A DNA stretch of 64,000 bases, taken from the NCBI RefSeq assembly GCF_001013905.1, contig NZ_LN831790.1:1550001-1614000 (forward strand), read 5' to 3'. The position numbers were made by a program, and so were the translations under genes. The notes under the pieces are model-generated. The model saw only the letters and a list, made by a program, of their open reading frames with translations. It was not told the DNA's origin and searched no databases. The DNA is from Streptomyces leeuwenhoekii (GTDB taxonomy: Bacteria; Actinomycetota; Actinomycetes; Streptomycetales; Streptomycetaceae). The stretch's first letter is position 1, and each line of letters begins with the position of its first letter. Of the stretch, positions 22,265 through 28,359 are shown one piece after another.

Positions 22265-22594
22265 GTGAGACGGGGTACGGGGTGCACGGACTCGCGCATC
22301 ACCTGTTGCCGCGGCGTGGCCGCACCCGGGCCGTCCCGGCCGATCGTCTCGGCCACGCCGGGGGCGATCTGGCCCAGGGGCTCCTGGCTTCCGCCGCAGC
22401 CGCGGCCGTCACGCGAGCCGTTCGGCCACCGGCAGCCAGGTTTCGACGATCGCATCGTGGAGCGCGTGCCCCGCGGGCCGTCGGCGAGCGGCCGCGGCGA
22501 CGCAGGGGGCAGGGCGGCGGGCGCGGAGGGCGGCGGCCCGGGCGTTCGGCAAACTTTGCCGACTGCCCACCCCGCCATGTGTCATGCGTGTCAC
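22265..22594 (-). pseudogene. Decayed SigB/SigF-family sigma factor remnant
   Basis: The frame from 22594 to 22409 ends HALHDAIVETWLPVAERLA, then a stop. A second frame continues as GRGCGGSQEPLGQIAPGV and ends in AETIGRDGP. Together these match the region 2 start of stress sigma factors of the SigB/F/G group (a pattern like VE-WLP-A-RLA-RY-GRGE--EDL-QVA-LGL--A-DRYDP). The frame break lies near 22410. Downstream only a weak match remains (RESVHPVPRLTR), and regions 2.4 to 4 are missing before the secreted-protein gene. A frameshifted, truncated sigma gene is the best reading. Confidence 0.55.
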
Positions 22595-22800
22595 TCAAGT
22601 CACAGATGACAGGCGATCAGTGCAAGTTACATCTGAAGACGGGGGATCGCCTGGGATGCCGGCGCAAGACGCCTGATTCACCGTCCCTTCGCAGGAAAGC
22701 GCGAGCGAATTCCGTTGATTGACGCTCCGTCAGGTCCGCGACCCTACGTGTTTCTTGTTCATGGAATCGATAGTTCCGCGGGTCATGTAGCGACAATGTG
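22595..22800. other. Noncoding region with nested inverted repeats
   Basis: No gene is seen. CAGATG (22603-22608) pairs with CATCTG (22630-22635), and AGGCGATC (22611-22618) pairs with GATCGCCT (22645-22652). The two repeats interlock, so only one can form at a time. TTGACG and TTGTTC occur further on, but neither has a well-spaced -10. Confidence 0.4.
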
Positions 22801-22824
22801 AAGGCGCACCGGCTGGTGCGCCTT
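22801..22824. terminator. Perfect 10-bp stem-loop upstream of the secreted protein
   Basis: AAGGCGCACC (22801-22810) and GGTGCGCCTT (22815-22824) form a perfect stem around the tetraloop GGCT, followed by CGTTCT. It may stop transcription from the left or act as a leader element for the gene at 22912. Confidence 0.6.
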
Positions 22825-22883
22825 CGTTCTGCGTGAGCCGCCGGGCTGCTCATGCCGGGCTCCGGGGGCTGCGCTTCTTCACA

Positions 22884-22913
22884 GAGGGGGACGCACATGA
22901 GGGGGACGCACAT
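22884..22913 (+). repeat. Tandem 15-bp duplication of ribosome site and start codon
   Basis: GAGGGGGACGCACAT occurs twice in direct succession (22884-22898 and 22899-22913). Each copy carries the ribosome site and the first two bases of an ATG, giving two in-frame starts at 22897 and 22912 with the same spacing. Confidence 0.9.
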
Positions 22914-23445
22914 GAGACGTGCGCGCATGACGACGGCGGCGACGGTGGCGGGCGCGGCGCTGTCGCTGCTGGGAGCCGGGGTGGCCTCGGCGGGTACGGG
23001 GCCGGCGCCCACGCCGCAGCAGCGGGCGGACACCGAGGCAGCGGGTACCGCGGGGACGGAGGCGGGCAACCCGGCCAGCGCCGTCGCTGCCGCGACGGGG
23101 GTGTGTTCGGACGCGTACCAGATCGGTTCGACCGCCTACATCTACCGCGGCACCGAGAAGATCGCCTCGGTCAAGCAGTTCTACTCGCCCACCTGCAACG
23201 AGAACTACGGCTACACCTGGGTGTGGCAGTCCTTCCTGGACAAGAACATCAGTTTCGACCTGACGGTCGGGGTGTGGTCCTTCGAGCGCGACAGCCTCGT
23301 CGGCCGGAAGGACGTCTTCGACACCCACGCCCAGGAGTTCTGGAGCAACGGCGCCGACACCGTCGACGAGTGCACCTCGGCCGACGGCGCCCTGAGCATC
23401 GTGGGCGAGGCCACGTACGAAGCGCGCACCGAGCGCCGCTGCTGA
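22912..23445 (+). CDS. Small secreted cysteine-containing protein, possibly DUF2690-like
   Basis: The product of about 177 residues starts with a Sec signal peptide ending near GVASA-G. The mature part has four cysteines, including VCSDAYQIG, SPTCNENYG, DECTSADG and a C-terminal Cys, likely as disulfides. The stretch YIYRGTEKIASVKQFYSPTC resembles DUF2690 proteins, secreted actinobacterial proteins of unknown function, but the match is weak. Two equivalent starts exist (22897, 22912) because the ribosome site and ATG are duplicated; the second gives the cleaner signal peptide. It lies 117 bp upstream of the RHS gene on the same strand. Confidence 0.75.
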   Translation: MRRARMTTAATVAGAALSLLGAGVASAGTGPAPTPQQRADTEAAGTAGTEAGNPASAVAAATGVCSDAYQIGSTAYIYRGTEKIASVKQFYSPTCNENYGYTWVWQSFLDKNISFDLTVGVWSFERDSLVGRKDVFDTHAQEFWSNGADTVDECTSADGALSIVGEATYEARTERRC

Positions 23446-23562
23446 CGCGACGCCGACCACCACACGGTCATCACCTCGGGGACAGGGCGGGACGGCACCC
23501 CGGCACGGGTGCCGCCCCCACAGGCCCTGCTCCTTTGCCATCCACGCATCGGAGAGACCTTC

Positions 23563-26500
23563 GTGAATTCTCGCATGCCCGAAATACGGCACCGCAGACA
23601 TTGGCTGTCGCTCGCGGTCCTGGCCGCGGCCACCGCGACCGCCACCATGGCCGCCACCGTCCCGGCCGTCGCCGCGCCGCGCCAGGCCACAGCGCCTGCC
23701 GCCAAGGTGCCGCCGACGCCGCTGGGGATCACCAAGGCGCCGGCCAGCACCCCGGTCAAGGCCACCGAGACCGACGGCCCGCTGCTGAAGTCCGCCGCCG
23801 CCGAACCCGGCGTCGTGGCCGTCGGCGTCGGCCAGGTGCCCTGGGCCGAGTTCCTCACCGCGCAGTTGTCCGACGGCGTCAGCGCCCAGATCAACTACGG
23901 CACCGGCAACCTCCTGGTCACCGTCGACGGCTTCGACATCGCCGACGCCGGCCCCGGCCTGTCCTACGGCAACACCTTCAACAGCCTCAACCAGGCGGGC
24001 TGGAACGCCACCACCGGCGCCGACTACCGCGTCAACGAGGCCACCCCCAACGCCGTGGTGGTCGAGGGACCCACCGGCACCATGGCGGTCTTTCCCCGCG
24101 ACGGCTCCGGCTTCACCCCGGCCAAGGGCTACAAGCAGGACCTGACCGAGGCGGACGACAAGAAGTCCTTCACCCTCACCAGCCGCCGCACGGGTGAGAA
24201 GACCACCTTCACCCGGTCCGGCACCACAGGGGCCGCGCGGGTGTCGAAGGTGGAGGACAGGAACGGCAACGCCACCACGATCACCTACTCCGGCGCCTTC
24301 GCCTCGAAGATCACTGCCGCATCGGGGCGGACGCTGACGCTCACCAACGACGGCACGCACATCACGAAGGTGACCGACGACACCGGACGGTCGATCAGCT
24401 ACACCTACACCGGTGACCTGATCAGGACCTTCACCGACACCGCCGGCAAGACCACCACCTTCGCCTACGACGCCTCCGACCGGCTGACGAAGATCACCAC
24501 CGCGGAGGGGCGGCAGACCACCTTCACCTGGGACAGCACCAAGGTCGCCTCGCTCACCCGGGTCGTGAACAACGCCACCGGGACCGGCAACACCACCGCC
24601 TTCCGCTGGATCCTGCCCGCCGACAACACCGACGACGAGGGCGTCGTACGGATCACCGACCCCCGCGGCAAGCACACGCTCAAGACGGTCGACGGCCACT
24701 GGCGCACCAAGAAGACCGAGGATCCGCTCGGCCGCACCCGCTCGAAGTCCTGGGGCCCGGACAACGACGTCATGACCGCCACCGACGCCATGGGCGCCAC
24801 CCCCGAAGAGGGCAACGTCACCAGCTACACGTACGACTCGGCCTTCAACCCGACCTCGGTCACCCTCCCGACCGGCGCGCAGGCGACCGCGACCTGGGTG
24901 AAGAAGGGCAGCGGTTTCTTCCCCGAGACGCTGACCTCCGCCTCGGCGGAGAAGACCACCAACGGCTACGACACCTCGGGCAACCTGCTCACCTCGCAGG
25001 ACTCCACCTCCGGCGGCACCGCCGCGAAATGGGAGTACACCTACAACCCCAAGACAGGTGAGATGGACTGCGGGGGCCTGCCCGGCCAGCGCTGCACCGC
25101 CACCGACCCGCGGGGCAAGAAGACCAGCTACACCTACGACGCCAAGGGCAATCTGACCAAGGTCACCCCGCCCAGCCCGCTCAAGCCCCTCACCTACACC
25201 TACGACGAGCTGGGCCGGCAGCGAACGGTGACCGACGGCCGCGGCATCACCACCACCTACACCTACGACGGCCGCGACCGCGTCAAGAGCCAGACGGCCG
25301 GCTCGGCGGCCGCCGACTTCACCTACGACGGCGACGGCAACCTCATCACGCGTACCACCCCGGCGGGCACCTCGACGTTCACCTACGACGAGCAGAACCG
25401 GGAACGCACCCGCACCCTGCCCGGCACCGGCAGCACGCAGATCACCTACGACCCGGCCGGCAACGTCGCCACCGCGACCGACTCCGGCGGCACCGTCACC
25501 TACGGCTACGACGACGCCAACCAGCTCACCTCGGTGACCGAACCGGGCGGCGCCAAGACGACGTTCGAGTACGACAAGAACGGCAAGCGCATCAAGACGG
25601 TCTTCCCCGGCGGCACCACCCAGACCGTCACCCCCGACGACTCCGACCGCCCCACCAAGATCGAAGTGAAGTCCGGCACCACGACCTTGTCGTCGATCTC
25701 CTACGACTACAGCAACAGCGGCAAGGACACCGACAAGATCCGCAAGCGCACGGCCGACGGCGCCGTCACCACCTACACCTACGACACTCTCGGCCGCCTC
25801 ACCAAGGCCGTGGAGACCAAGAACGGCTCCACCACGGCCGGCTGGGCCTACTGCTACGACAAGGCCGGCAACCGCACCGCAAGCTCCACCGGCACCTCCC
25901 TGCCGGCCTGCGACAGCGCCCAGCACACCTACACCTACAACGATGCCGGCCAACTGACGGCCTACGACGGCGACTCGGGCTTCACCTACGACGGCGACGG
26001 CAACGAGACCAGCGCCGCCGGCCCCACCGGCACCCGGACCGACGAAACCTGGACCCCTTTCACCCAGCTCGCCTCCTACACCCAGTCGGGCACCACCACC
26101 GGCCACACCTACGCCGGCACCGACAACACCCAGCGCCTGACCCGCGGCGACACCACCTTCACCAACTCCGCGGTCGGCCTGACCGGCCAGAGCGTGAGCG
26201 GCACGGCCACCGGTTTCGTCCGCGAACCCTCGGGCACCTTGGTAGCCATGAGGAGCGGGGGAAGCAGCCAGTACTACCTCACCGACGCCCAGAACTCCGT
26301 CATCGGCCTGGTCGACACCGCCGGCAAGCGCACCGCCACCTACACCTACGGACCCTACGGCGAGCCGCGCACCCACACCGGCACCCAGCAGCCCTACCGC
26401 TACACCAGCACCTACCTCGACCCGTCCGGCCTGTACAAAATGGGCGCCCGCTACTACGACCCCGCCCTCGGCCGCTTCACCCAGCCCGACCCCAGCGGCC

Positions 26501-26778
26501 AGGAGAACAACCCCTACCTCTACGCCACCGGCGACCCCATCAACCACAGCGATCCGACCGGACTCTTCAGCTTCTCTGACGCCCTCGACGTAGGGGAAAA
26601 AATCTTCAGCGCTGCCACTGGTTGCCTGGCAGGTATCAGCGCTGCGGGTGAAACCGGCATCCTTACGGCAGCAACTGGTTTCTTCGGCGCGCCGGGCGGC
26701 TTGGCGGCCGGGGCACTGGCCTGCGGAGTCGGAGCAGGGGCCGGCCTGATAGGCGCGGACATCATCTCCTATGGGTGA
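23563..26778 (+). CDS. Secreted RHS/YD-repeat protein with short hydrophobic C-terminal module
   Basis: The 1071-residue protein has a twin-arginine-like or Sec signal region (HRRHWLSLAVLAAATATAT), then many YD repeats of the form TYTYDxxGRLT. These end in the RHS core signature: YYLTDAQNSVIG, GARYYDPALGRFTQPDP and NPYLYATGDPINHSDPTGL (DPTGL at 997-1001). RHS proteins form a closed shell around a C-terminal toxin. Here the variable tip after DPTGL is only 70 residues, Ala/Gly-rich and hydrophobic, without a known nuclease or deaminase motif. GC content drops at this point, as expected at an exchanged tip. The start is GTG at 23563 with GGAGAG 7 bp upstream. The small membrane gene downstream may be its immunity partner. 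Confidence 0.9.
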   Translation: MNSRMPEIRHRRHWLSLAVLAAATATATMAATVPAVAAPRQATAPAAKVPPTPLGITKAPASTPVKATETDGPLLKSAAAEPGVVAVGVGQVPWAEFLTAQLSDGVSAQINYGTGNLLVTVDGFDIADAGPGLSYGNTFNSLNQAGWNATTGADYRVNEATPNAVVVEGPTGTMAVFPRDGSGFTPAKGYKQDLTEADDKKSFTLTSRRTGEKTTFTRSGTTGAARVSKVEDRNGNATTITYSGAFASKITAASGRTLTLTNDGTHITKVTDDTGRSISYTYTGDLIRTFTDTAGKTTTFAYDASDRLTKITTAEGRQTTFTWDSTKVASLTRVVNNATGTGNTTAFRWILPADNTDDEGVVRITDPRGKHTLKTVDGHWRTKKTEDPLGRTRSKSWGPDNDVMTATDAMGATPEEGNVTSYTYDSAFNPTSVTLPTGAQATATWVKKGSGFFPETLTSASAEKTTNGYDTSGNLLTSQDSTSGGTAAKWEYTYNPKTGEMDCGGLPGQRCTATDPRGKKTSYTYDAKGNLTKVTPPSPLKPLTYTYDELGRQRTVTDGRGITTTYTYDGRDRVKSQTAGSAAADFTYDGDGNLITRTTPAGTSTFTYDEQNRERTRTLPGTGSTQITYDPAGNVATATDSGGTVTYGYDDANQLTSVTEPGGAKTTFEYDKNGKRIKTVFPGGTTQTVTPDDSDRPTKIEVKSGTTTLSSISYDYSNSGKDTDKIRKRTADGAVTTYTYDTLGRLTKAVETKNGSTTAGWAYCYDKAGNRTASSTGTSLPACDSAQHTYTYNDAGQLTAYDGDSGFTYDGDGNETSAAGPTGTRTDETWTPFTQLASYTQSGTTTGHTYAGTDNTQRLTRGDTTFTNSAVGLTGQSVSGTATGFVREPSGTLVAMRSGGSSQYYLTDAQNSVIGLVDTAGKRTATYTYGPYGEPRTHTGTQQPYRYTSTYLDPSGLYKMGARYYDPALGRFTQPDPSGQENNPYLYATGDPINHSDPTGLFSFSDALDVGEKIFSAATGCLAGISAAGETGILTAATGFFGAPGGLAAGALACGVGAGAGLIGADIISYG

Positions 26779-26828
26779 AAGAAGCTCCAAAGAGATCGCG
26801 AATTGAAGCAACGGAGTCAATGAGTGGT

Positions 26829-26870
26829 ACTTCCGTGTGGCAGTCTTGGTTCAGACTGCCACACGGAAGT
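26829..26870 (+). terminator. Perfect 18-bp hairpin between RHS gene and small membrane gene
   Basis: Bases 26829-26846 and 26853-26870 are exact reverse complements with the loop TGGTTC, about 50 bp after the RHS stop. A pyrimidine-rich stretch follows at 26879-26892. It is strong enough to terminate RHS transcription and so separate it from the next gene. Confidence 0.8.
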
Positions 26871-26941
26871 GGCGAATTCCTTTCATTCTCTTTGTGAATA
26901 TCCCCCGAGAGAATGCGCAGAGCAGGAACCTGGAGGATGTT

Positions 26942-27127
26942 ATGTCAATTAGTCCGGCCAAGAAGCTGGCTTGGTTCGTAGCGGTAGGGACAGTGTTCGG
27001 GCTGTTCTGCATTATCCTGGGCGCTCAGAGCCGGAACTATTTTCTTCTAGGCGCCGGAGGGCTTGCAGCTATTGGTGGTTTCTCTCTGATCCTGATGGCA
27101 ATCGTTCGCCAGGGGTCGAGAAAGTGA
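26942..27127 (+). CDS. Small two-helix membrane protein, candidate RHS immunity protein
   Basis: This 61-residue protein starts at an ATG with GGAGG 7 bp upstream. It has two hydrophobic helices (about 10-27 and 33-55) and basic ends (PAKK at the start, RQGSRK at the end). It is the first gene after the RHS protein, where polymorphic toxin loci normally carry immunity genes, and a membrane location would suit defence against a membrane-acting tip. Codon use is less GC-biased than in neighbouring genes. It matches no family I recognise. The role is inference from position. Confidence 0.6.
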   Translation: MSISPAKKLAWFVAVGTVFGLFCIILGAQSRNYFLLGAGGLAAIGGFSLILMAIVRQGSRK

Positions 27128-27325
27128 AATAGTCTATATCGATCCGTAAGCGGTGCGGGTTCTGGGTCGTTGGTGGATCGATCTGGTGCACTGCTTCTGT
27201 GTGTGTATGGCCCCGACATTCCTTTCGGCAGCCCGTACACGGGAGTCGCGGGGATCTTCCCGTCGGACGTCATGGCGGACCGCAGCGGTGGGAGCGGCGT
27301 GCGTTGCAGTAGTGGAACGCGGCGG

Positions 27326-27547
27326 ATGGATGCGCCGGTGCAAGATGCGATAAGAGGAGTGCGAGCCTTTTCTGCGACCCTGATCGCAGGCGGGATGGCG
27401 GCGTCGGTCGCGAGAACGGTAACTGACGACACTGTGCCGATCGCTCTCGGAGCGATCGGCACAGTCAGTGGAGTGGTTCTGGCGGTCTTCGCCTTCCTGG
27501 GACATCGGAAAACTCGCTATCGCTCCTGCCACGATGATTCGGATTGA
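27326..27547 (+). CDS. Possible small two-helix membrane protein
   Basis: This frame encodes about 73 residues with two hydrophobic segments (AFSATLIAGGMAASVA and IALGAIGTVSGVVLAVFAF) and a charged tail. Its size and topology recall the 61-residue protein upstream. No good ribosome site precedes the chosen ATG at 27326, and the start is uncertain. A perfect 15-bp hairpin at 27431-27465 lies within the second helix region, which raises the alternative that this is noncoding. It could be a second immunity gene left from an earlier RHS tip. Confidence 0.4.
   Translation: MDAPVQDAIRGVRAFSATLIAGGMAASVARTVTDDTVPIALGAIGTVSGVVLAVFAFLGHRKTRYRSCHDDSD
27431..27465. other. Perfect 15-bp hairpin inside the possible ORF
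   Basis: ACTGTGCCGATCGCT (27431-27445) and AGCGATCGGCACAGT (27451-27465) are exact reverse complements around CTCGG. It may be a terminator or a structural element of the exchanged region. No T-run follows. Confidence 0.6.
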
Positions 27548-27628
27548 TTGCGCGTGCCGTACTGGTCTCGACGATTCAGACGGCTCGAGACCGGCGCACC
27601 GCCGCTTGGCAGCAGCGCGGCCAGCTGA

Positions 27629-27802
27629 GACGGTCCATCCTCATTGAGGAAAGATTTGGTAGCCGTCGGCGCGGCCGGCGAGTTCGCCTGCTACTTCGCA
27701 GCGGGATTCGTTGCGGCTCCCACGGCGGGACTCGGCGGCGCAGCCGTGGCCGCCGAATGTACGGCCATCGCCTTTACGCCGACTTCGGCACGGAGCAGTT
27801 GA
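27629..27802 (+). pseudogene. Displaced RHS C-terminal tip-like fragment
   Basis: Between stop codons at 27626 and 27800 an open frame of 57 codons encodes segments such as VGAAGEFACYFAAGF and AAPTAGLGGAAVAA. They resemble the tip of the RHS protein (SAAGETGILTAATGFF, APGGLAAGALACGVGAG) in order, spacing and Ala/Gly/aromatic pattern. No ATG or ribosome site is present. This fits a silent orphan tip of the kind that accumulates 3' of RHS genes by exchange. The similarity rests on short low-complexity segments and was judged by eye. Confidence 0.45.
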
Positions 27803-27843
27803 CAGGTCGAGGTAGCCCGCATCGATCGCGTCGACCAGGCGGT

Positions 27844-27873
27844 GTGGGGTATGGCATCCATGCGGTACCCCAC
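27844..27873 (+). promoter_or_regulatory. Leader hairpin just before the 38-residue ORF
   Basis: GTGGGGTA (27844-27851) and TACCCCAC (27866-27873) form an 8-bp stem with an inner GCAT/ATGC helix. The ribosome site AAGGAGGG begins 3 bp beyond it. It could end upstream transcription or shield the leader. Confidence 0.45.
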
Positions 27874-27889
27874 ATCAAGGAGGGAAGCA

Positions 27890-28006
27890 ATGGAAATGGC
27901 TCGTGGCTCCAGTATCGATGGTGGCGGCCATCTGGCGTTGATCGCCTTGGGTATCGCAGTCGTCTGCTTCATCATCGCCGCCGTGGCCTCACGGAAGAAG
28001 CGATAG
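27890..28006 (+). CDS. 38-residue single-helix membrane peptide
   Basis: The ATG at 27890 has a strong GGAGGG site 6 bp upstream. The 38-residue product has a short Gly/Ser-rich start, one transmembrane helix (LALIALGIAVVCFIIAAVA) and a basic end SRKKR. It directly follows the displaced RHS tip fragment, so it could be the immunity partner of that tip. Alternatively it is a small membrane peptide unrelated to RHS. I recognise no family. Confidence 0.55.
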   Translation: MEMARGSSIDGGGHLALIALGIAVVCFIIAAVASRKKR

Positions 28007-28359
28007 CAATGGCCGGGGCAGCTCCTGGCCTCCGGGGCTGAGAAACGTACCGACTGGCAGGGTGCGAGCCCTCGGCGGTCCGCCCGCGGCGGACCGGGGT
28101 CGTCGTGCCGGTGATCACGGGGCGTCGGTGGGACCGTACGGCCTGCGGAACGGTCGGTCATCGGGGGAACACGTCCGGGGCGGACGGCGGGCGCCGGACG
28201 CGCCGCTCCCGAGGACGTAGGGCCCACTCGAAGCACCGGGGTGCCCTGCCCGCACCCGGCCGCGAACGCCCCGGGTGATGTTTTCCGGCATCCCGCCCGG
28301 TGACTCGTACGGCTGCTGCCGGGAACTCCCCCCACGACCCATCTCCTGGAGGTCCGTAC
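28007..28359. other. Intergenic region before the PoxB-like gene
   Basis: No gene is seen in these 353 bp. GC content returns to the genome norm, marking the right edge of the low-GC RHS tail. A stem-loop lies at 28076-28096, and a GGAGG site for the next gene is at the end. GGGTGATG near 28276 recalls a SigB-type -10 but has no fitting -35. Confidence 0.6.
28076..28096 (+). terminator. Stem-loop at the end of the RHS tail
   Basis: CGGTCCGCC (28076-28084) and GGCGGACCG (28088-28096) form a perfect 9-bp stem around CGC, 70 bp beyond the 38-residue ORF. Confidence 0.55.

Follow-up and report, generated by a model that had tools for sequence, protein, structure and literature searches.

Pore-forming C-terminal tips of rearrangement hotspot (RHS) proteins are known from few cases. 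Tse5, which has a two-transmembrane immunity protein, Tsi5, depolarises cells (PMC9637101), and the hydrophobic tip of BiTLP, the Bacillus inaquosorum teneurin-like protein, stops growth and admits propidium iodide into Escherichia coli when combined with a signal peptide (PMC13018210). In enterobacterial Rhs proteins and Tse5, an aspartyl-protease motif, DPXGX18-19DPXG, has a role in tip release (PMC10684867), and in Enterobacteriaceae the cores and tips of Rhs proteins are decoupled, with dissociated old tips found in arrays (PMC2935791). Here we analyse an RHS/YD (tyrosine-aspartate repeat) locus of Streptomyces leeuwenhoekii (genome of 8.1 Mb in three contigs), located in a stretch of 64,000 nucleotides (NZ_LN831790.1, positions 1,550,001 to 1,614,000; hereafter the window). 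The RHS protein ends in a hydrophobic tip of 70 residues, followed by small membrane open reading frames (ORFs) of 61, 73 and 38 amino acids (Table 1). We consider it likely that the locus is a secreted RHS polymorphic toxin after weapon exchange, with a membrane-inserting tip for which the 61-amino-acid protein is the immunity. An RHS polymorphic toxin with a membrane-active tip is a known type; new to us are this family, its size, its cassette anatomy and a swap caught with old and new parts both in place.

The locus resembles Tse5/Tsi5 in its RHS shell and aspartyl-protease motif, and in the non-enzymatic membrane-active C-terminus and two-transmembrane immunity that we predict for it (PMC9637101, PMC10684867). 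The RHS protein matched RHS_repeat (PF05593, 173.2 bits) and the RHS-associated core domain (TIGR03696, 76.5 bits against a cut-off of 32.5), both of which, with the YD repeats, scored well over cut-off. These Pfam, NCBIfam and PADLOC scans bore out the description in an earlier note of a 1071-residue RHS/YD protein whose tip has no known motif, since the last 70 residues matched no family at E-values up to 0.1. The ATG at 23575, used by the database copy (P0006, 1067 amino acids), is the likelier start. A Foldseek search with the AlphaFold model of the RHS protein gave matches to the RhsA, Tse15, RhsP and Tse5 shells (E < 1e-31). This model is loose, with a mean predicted local distance difference test score (pLDDT) of 60.6, and for that reason the TM-scores by query length were modest, at 0.29-0.50. 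The shell of a teneurin-like protein (9ifo) ranked 12th, below Rhs shells of the type VI secretion system (T6SS). The window junction DPSG-X17-DPTG-L, which ends at 26565, corresponds to the published protease motif; the X17 spacing was present in 34 of 35 distinct full-length proteins, and the Asp, Pro and Gly residues were invariant in 17 of 17.

There are also clear differences from the described systems. Tse5 is delivered by the T6SS and has a PAAR-like N-terminus, a C-terminal toxin of 149 residues (Ile1169-Gln1317) and an X19 motif spacing, whereas the Pfam scan of the window protein found RHS_repeat only and no PAAR-like N-terminus, the N-terminus looks by eye like a signal peptide, and the tip is less than half as long. 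When a profile of 24 tips was searched against the PDB, no Tse5 chain was among the seven sequences listed at E-values up to 1. BiTLP shares with the window protein a Gram-positive RHS/YD shell with a hydrophobic tip (PMC13018210). It may differ in being teneurin-like, as the window protein has RHS_repeat alone in Pfam. The W-TIP toxin domain is likewise a small, hydrophobic, two-helix tip and proposed pore-former, but it carries the motifs RxxR and W-TIP and, as of 2012, was confined to proteobacteria (PMC3482391), whereas the window tip contains neither Arg nor Trp.

The exchange can be read from a comparison with the allele of Streptomyces harenosi PRKS01-65 (L045). The two DNAs are 93% identical by blastn from 22579 to 26568, that is, up to the tip junction. 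A segment of about 1.09 kb without a DNA match then replaces the front of a different S. harenosi tip. Similarity resumes at 27659-27874 (L045 9121-9328, 81% identity), which is the later part of the intact S. harenosi tip and the bases just past it, and the displaced tip-like fragment that the earlier note had reported is therefore real. A further 274 bp of S. harenosi, holding a 71-residue ORF with two transmembrane segments, is missing from the window, and 27874-28078 again matches S. harenosi DNA, which carries a 40-residue ORF. The window thus holds another cassette in front of a broken S. harenosi-type cassette. Two cassettes of different age make up the low-GC region: a newer one (the tip and the 61-amino-acid protein, then the 73-amino-acid protein, a putative sister-class immunity) and what is left of an older one (the tip fragment and the 38-amino-acid ORF). 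We infer that the S. harenosi state is the older, because the remnant is truncated in the window. This scar resembles the Rhs displacement of Enterobacteriaceae, from which it differs in that the displaced tips are hydrophobic and that a small single-pass gene is kept while the two-transmembrane gene is lost.

The earlier note had the GC content falling right at the tip. The low GC was confirmed, as the six lowest of 629 windows (1085 bp, step 100 bp, across the 64 kb) start at 26301-26801, but the fall starts inside the tip and is steepest just past its stop codon. The core had a GC fraction of 0.691 and the tip one of 0.648 (0.581 in its first half); the fraction was 0.497 in the gap after the tip, and 0.546, 0.603 and 0.596 in the 61-, 73- and 38-amino-acid ORFs, respectively, against 0.735 for the window; that of the unmatched segment was 0.591. 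All three small membrane ORFs of the earlier note are present. Clear ribosome-binding sites precede the 61- and 38-amino-acid ORFs; the 73-amino-acid ORF is without a clear one and its start is uncertain. Hydropathy gave two transmembrane segments for the 61-amino-acid protein.

Across relatives, tip and core proved to be uncoupled. Among the eight pairs of cores at least 90% identical, half had tips less than 40% identical and one had tips at least 60% identical. For L048 and L049, core and tip identities were 0.90 and 0.25, and for the window and L045 they were 0.94 and 0.44, with a background tip median of about 0.3. The reverse was seen for L044 and L123 (0.52 and 0.90) and for the RHS protein P0007 of genome G601, whose identity to the window protein is 44% over the whole length and 0.53 over 450 residues of the core, but 77% in the tip. 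The window protein therefore combines RHS repeats and the core domain with a protease motif ahead of a variable tip that is decoupled from the core, as in an RHS polymorphic toxin. These data also bear on a quite different role, in which the hydrophobic tip would be a membrane anchor on the producer and the small membrane proteins its anchoring or assembly partners. Such a role would suit a protein that by eye looks like an export of the Sec pathway and that has a hydrophobic tip and tiny membrane proteins as neighbours. However, an anchor has no need for polymorphism, yet some cores of about 90% identity bear unrelated tips; L172, L094 and L095 contain free-standing tips located 3' of a carrier; and in six of 13 genomes a partner homologue is found with no RHS-like frame in the fetched stretch. 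We regard an anchor as quite unlikely.

Tips akin to that of the window were sought in overlapping sets of 41, 392 and 394 genomes, with matches in 7, 49 and 12, using for the first two sets the C-terminal 104 amino acids, including 34 residues of core. Three tip classes could be distinguished. In the window class (window, G555, G601; mean tip identity 77%), a homologue of the 61-amino-acid protein was the first ORF 3' of the tip in three of three cases; in G555 and G601 these homologues (64% and 49% identical) lie directly 3' of the two tips that, among those found, were closest to that of the window (87% and 77%). In the "ITYG" class (seven rows) the first ORF was a homologue of the 73-amino-acid protein, and in the third class (three rows) it was a third two-transmembrane type. 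Immunity identity was 0.35-0.97 within classes and 0.11-0.34 between them (13 of 15 pairs, L156 and a second L016 row being excluded from the class means). Over the 15 pairs left after four of 19 rows were dropped (two without an ORF, L022 with an unclear tip boundary and a two-residue L016 fragment), the matrices for tip and immunity were correlated with a Mantel r of 0.89, reached in 0 of 10000 permutations. For the 11 pairs with a core of 450 residues, which excludes G555 as well as L156, L016 and L154, the correlation was 0.90 between tip and immunity (0 of 10000), 0.21 between core and tip (2419) and 0.13 between core and immunity (3513); removing the core effect left the tip-immunity correlation at 0.897. 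Tip and immunity thus travel together, apart from the core. The exchange hotspot proposed in the earlier note is upheld, in that tips vary at a fixed junction on close cores and the downstream membrane protein changes with the tip and not the core. This is the opposite of an invariant tip with unrelated downstream genes, which that note had named as a result that would refute its reading. Such co-variation is what a cassette predicts and is no proof by itself of binding. Read in this way, the sequences suggest that the 61-amino-acid protein is probably the cognate immunity of the window tip, and that the 73-amino-acid protein is a putative orphan immunity of the sister tip class, retained or acquired.

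A low-GC stretch of decayed DNA with chance hydrophobic ORFs would be a more trivial account, and the stretch at about 27659-27815 is indeed a ruin. Against it, comparison with G555 and G601, respectively, gave ratios of nonsynonymous to synonymous change (dN/dS) of 0.06 and 0.13 in the tip and of 0.22 and 0.28 in the 61-amino-acid gene; for the 38-amino-acid gene against S. harenosi the ratio was 0.18, on 13 changes. Furthermore, the tip and the homologue of the 61-amino-acid protein occur in the same order in two other genomes. We therefore hold decay of the whole stretch to be highly improbable. Since the tip and the 61- and 38-amino-acid ORFs are under purifying selection, they are probably real, used genes, with the 61-amino-acid gene, the putative immunity, evolving faster than the tip.

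The window tip belongs to a large family. From 137 loci and the window we drew 61 distinct tips; identical tips were counted once (62 rows, or 61 without L009, the window's own copy) and near-identical ones kept separate. Of the 58 tips of at least 50 residues, which leaves aside the broken frames L035, L039 and L075, 54 had a 19-residue hydropathy peak of at least 1.3, and exactly two cysteines were present in 48 in spite of strong divergence otherwise; in a secreted tip the two cysteines suggest a disulfide. The tips average 40% Ala plus Gly. Five GxxxG motifs, the repeats on which the toxicity of glycine-zipper pore-formers depends, occur in the window tip, whose composition (Table 1) alone may explain them. 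Family libraries gave nothing firm on the tips, with one NCBIfam match (E 0.0037) in one of 24, and a protein database search with the window tip returned three proteins only. A match of the tip profile to the pore-forming proteins SmhB/AhlB was not significant (E 0.04) and was not used. The tip could instead inhibit a specific membrane enzyme or transporter and form no leak, as might be argued from its small size, a pore that is only predicted and the lack of a match to a known pore-former. Other hydrophobic RHS tips, however, depolarise or permeabilise cells (Tse5, BiTLP; PMC9637101, PMC13018210), and the dissimilar tips share mainly hydrophobicity and two cysteines, which bilayer insertion would fit better. 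We consider a specific inhibitor unlikely, and favour insertion into the bilayer.

Small membrane ORFs accompany nearly all of these tips. Counting ORFs of 30-130 residues that are preceded by a Shine-Dalgarno (SD) sequence and contain a segment of transmembrane grade, 54 of the 61 tips had one within 200 bp (for L035 this ORF is what remains of the broken tip itself), compared with 113 of 3000 random positions and five of 200 other long ORF ends. The first such ORF was of the two-transmembrane type by hydropathy in 37 of the 54. Pairs of similar tips had similar ORFs in 51 of 182 cases, against a permutation mean of 10.8 and a maximum of 22 in 2000; in the 131 pairs without similar ORFs, short Ala/Gly-rich tips are perhaps alike by composition. 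Within 450 bp, 23 tips had two-transmembrane ORFs only, 16 single-pass ORFs only, 13 one of each, one had two two-transmembrane ORFs, one had two single-pass ORFs and seven had none. The 16 and the 13 raise the question of whether immunity is conferred, wholly or jointly, by the single-pass proteins of about 40 residues and the two-transmembrane proteins have another role, or whether both protect, at different membrane faces, as ExiAB and ExiCD do against EsxX. Survival of the 38-amino-acid ORF beside a broken tip and a lost two-transmembrane partner would agree with this, and EsxX, with two immunity families guarding in two compartments (PMC12744356), is a possible model for the combined sets. 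Against it stand the 23 tips with two-transmembrane ORFs only and the window class itself, as neither the window nor G555 nor G601 has a single-pass ORF with a ribosome-binding site within 700 bp of its window-class tip, with the caveat that a 36-residue piece of a 73-amino-acid-type homologue is present in G555. Immunity by the single-pass proteins is in our judgement somewhat unlikely, and we continue to assign it to the two-transmembrane protein.

The gap between tip and immunity gene often contains a hairpin, in the window a perfect inverted repeat of 18 bp. In 22 of 33 gaps of at least 30 bp the perfect stem was longer than in any of 100 base shuffles, and within 75 bp past the stop, 23 of the 61 tips had a stem of at least 9 bp, compared with 17 of 241 ends of other ORFs. 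The hairpins (window, L045, L054, L064, L100 and others) mostly differ in sequence. By type of first ORF, stems were present for 22 of 37 two-transmembrane and one of 17 single-pass cases, a comparison that is confounded because the single-pass gaps are mostly too short. Of the other two members of the window class, G601 has a stem of 14 bp; that of G555, at 5 bp, is not worth naming. A sigma-70 scan found no promoter, and two terminator-like sites against 1.5 expected; by that scan the long hairpin is therefore no classical T-tailed terminator. We tentatively suggest, as one possibility, that the RHS proteins of Streptomyces carry a large and uncatalogued set of membrane-inserting tips clasped by disulfides, many of them served by a pair of immunity genes (one for a two-transmembrane protein that a perfect hairpin of its own separates from the toxin, the other for a basic-tailed single-pass protein of about 40 residues on another membrane face), in which tip, hairpin and immunity would be the unit of exchange and a ladder of past immunities would be kept.

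For the window locus we propose the following model. The RHS cage would be exported and assembled, and its aspartyl-protease motif would self-cleave after DPTGL. The freed 70-residue hydrophobic tip, with two helices and two cysteines, would be released at contact, insert into the membrane of a neighbouring bacterium and make it leaky. The producer and its kin would be shielded by the 61-residue two-helix membrane protein, which may engage the tip inside the bilayer. As a single cassette, the tip and its immunity gene would shift between RHS cores; in the window the incoming cassette presumably hit an older S. harenosi-type cassette, truncating its tip and leaving the 38-residue membrane protein, while the 73-residue protein would guard against the sister tip class. 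The architecture, the breakpoints, the core-independent co-inheritance of tip and immunity, the purifying selection and the pattern across relatives are what the sequences show; export, release, membrane insertion, leakage and protection are inferred.

Several points weigh against this model. Homologues of the 61-amino-acid protein are rare, in three of 392 genomes including its own, one of them weak, and the tip of G555 lies in a frame of only 292 residues. The three tip classes were named after the data had been seen, and adjacent genes are co-inherited anyway, so that co-variation shows a cassette and not binding. For a window-like orphan tip in G603 and a second tip in G601 no immunity ORF was found, and seven of the 61 tips have none by the filter, although one of these, L021, has an ORF without a clear SD sequence. 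The predicted helical hairpin of the tip is of low confidence (pLDDT 52.5), and the tip is not resolved in the full-length model, where pLDDT is below 50 from residue 944. Finally, the same family includes polar tips of 64-65 residues (L042, L104), of which L104 still has a small membrane ORF 3' of it, and Gly/Ser-rich tips with cysteines and an aromatic C-terminal end (L036, L119, L094, L095). Tiny membrane ORFs follow the Gly/Ser-rich tips too.

With the 68-amino-acid protein of L017 as query, members of the 73-amino-acid family were found in 13 of 392 genomes. Seven lie within RHS loci, four of them as the first ORF after an ITYG-class tip. In the window the homologue is the second small ORF. 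That of G322 is separated from a different tip by two other ORFs, and that of G245 is located some 1.8 kb past an RHS gene with another tip and is followed by a homologue of the 61-amino-acid protein. Of the six genomes without an RHS-like frame in the fetched stretch, two (L180, L181) hold there what resembles part of a tip, although the similarity is weak (E 3e-4 and 7e-5). In G603, G129 and G151, free tips that lack a full carrier come after others. Such orphan immunities and free tips resemble the displaced tips and stacked immunities described for other RHS and type VII secretion (T7SS) systems (PMC2935791, PMC9484751). At L094 (G129:C299) and L095 (G151:C66), RHS tips are lined up in tandem and separated by small membrane ORFs, as in known rhs tip arrays. 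In G555, past the homologue of the 61-amino-acid protein, a 73-amino-acid-type homologue is split into two halves that lie about 3.2 kb apart (L169 5483-5581 and 8777-8884), as if interrupted.

Membrane-depolarising or glycine-zipper toxins, several of them polymorphic, are also described among contact-dependent inhibition (CDI) ionophores with Imm-CdiI, TspA-TsaI, EsxX-ExiCD and TelE (PMC11630599, PMC9484751, PMC12744356, PMC3482391, PMC10434224), and in this group, too, the immunity proteins are polymorphic or located in the membrane, and their genes can stand in strings. Their carriers are CdiA and LXG/T7SS proteins, whereas that of the window is RHS, and the likeness is one of description. 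Among the papers that our full-text searches of open-licence literature brought up, no title or abstract shown concerned hydrophobic tips of Streptomyces RHS proteins paired with small membrane immunity proteins. In one RHS clade of this genus, which is heavily studied for antibiotics, hydrophobic tips number in the dozens and come with matching tiny membrane proteins that are easily overlooked in annotation. The candidate toxin-immunity pairs, in three specificity classes, bear on how two tiny membrane proteins recognise each other in the bilayer.

Table 1. Features of the RHS locus, in positions of the window
Feature	Position	Strand	Basis
172-amino-acid upstream protein, secreted-looking	22927..23445	+	tblastn, RHS loci
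RHS/YD polymorphic-toxin carrier	23563..26778	+	RHS frame of 1071 residues
DPSG-X17-DPTG, RHS aspartyl-protease (tip-release) motif	26488..26562	+	X17 spacing in relatives
Current toxin tip, 70 amino acids	26566..26775	+	Ala plus Gly 46%, two Cys; homologous tips in relatives
Stretch unmatched in S. harenosi DNA (new tip and hairpin, 61- and 73-amino-acid ORFs)	26569..27658		blastn breakpoints against L045
18-bp perfect inverted repeat between tip stop and 61-amino-acid ORF	26829..26870		fold z-score -7.35 for 26810-26890
61-amino-acid two-transmembrane protein, probable cognate immunity	26942..27127	+	homologues directly 3' of the two closest tips found
73-amino-acid two-transmembrane protein, homologue of sister tip class immunity	27326..27547	+	homologues in ITYG-class loci
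Remnant of former tip, front missing, C-terminal end out of frame	27659..27815 (end approximate)	+	blastn against L045
Remains of the intergenic hairpin of the old cassette, equivalent to that of L045	27843..27874		read from sequence
38-amino-acid single-pass protein of old cassette, still open	27890..28006	+	89% amino-acid identity to the 40-amino-acid ORF of L045

A number of candidate matches for the small proteins were set aside as hydrophobic noise. They comprise PnuC for the 61-amino-acid protein (E 4e-4, with 20.3 bits against a cut-off of 335), Rhomboid and holin matches for the 73-amino-acid protein, a SLATT-type PADLOC match (E 0.015) and, for 13 small two-transmembrane proteins, eight sub-threshold families (E 0.0011-0.0079), one with two members and the rest with one. 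A protein database search with the 61-amino-acid protein returned its own cluster only.

Among the 48 named loci recovered with the RHS protein, Streptomyces forms the majority. Six other RHS/YD proteins examined in this genome (L132-L137) are not hydrophobic at their ends, with hydropathy below 1.0 in the last 90 residues; L136 and L137 have in common a pre-tip segment that resembles a HINT-type domain. The 172-amino-acid protein encoded upstream of the RHS gene, for which NCBIfam gave no match, has tblastn matches of 61-93% identity in 15 other RHS loci (L044-L053, L055, L059, L111, L122, L125), a count in which L111 and L125 are probably the same contigs as L055 and L044. It tracks the sub-clade of the RHS core and may be an export or cage partner.

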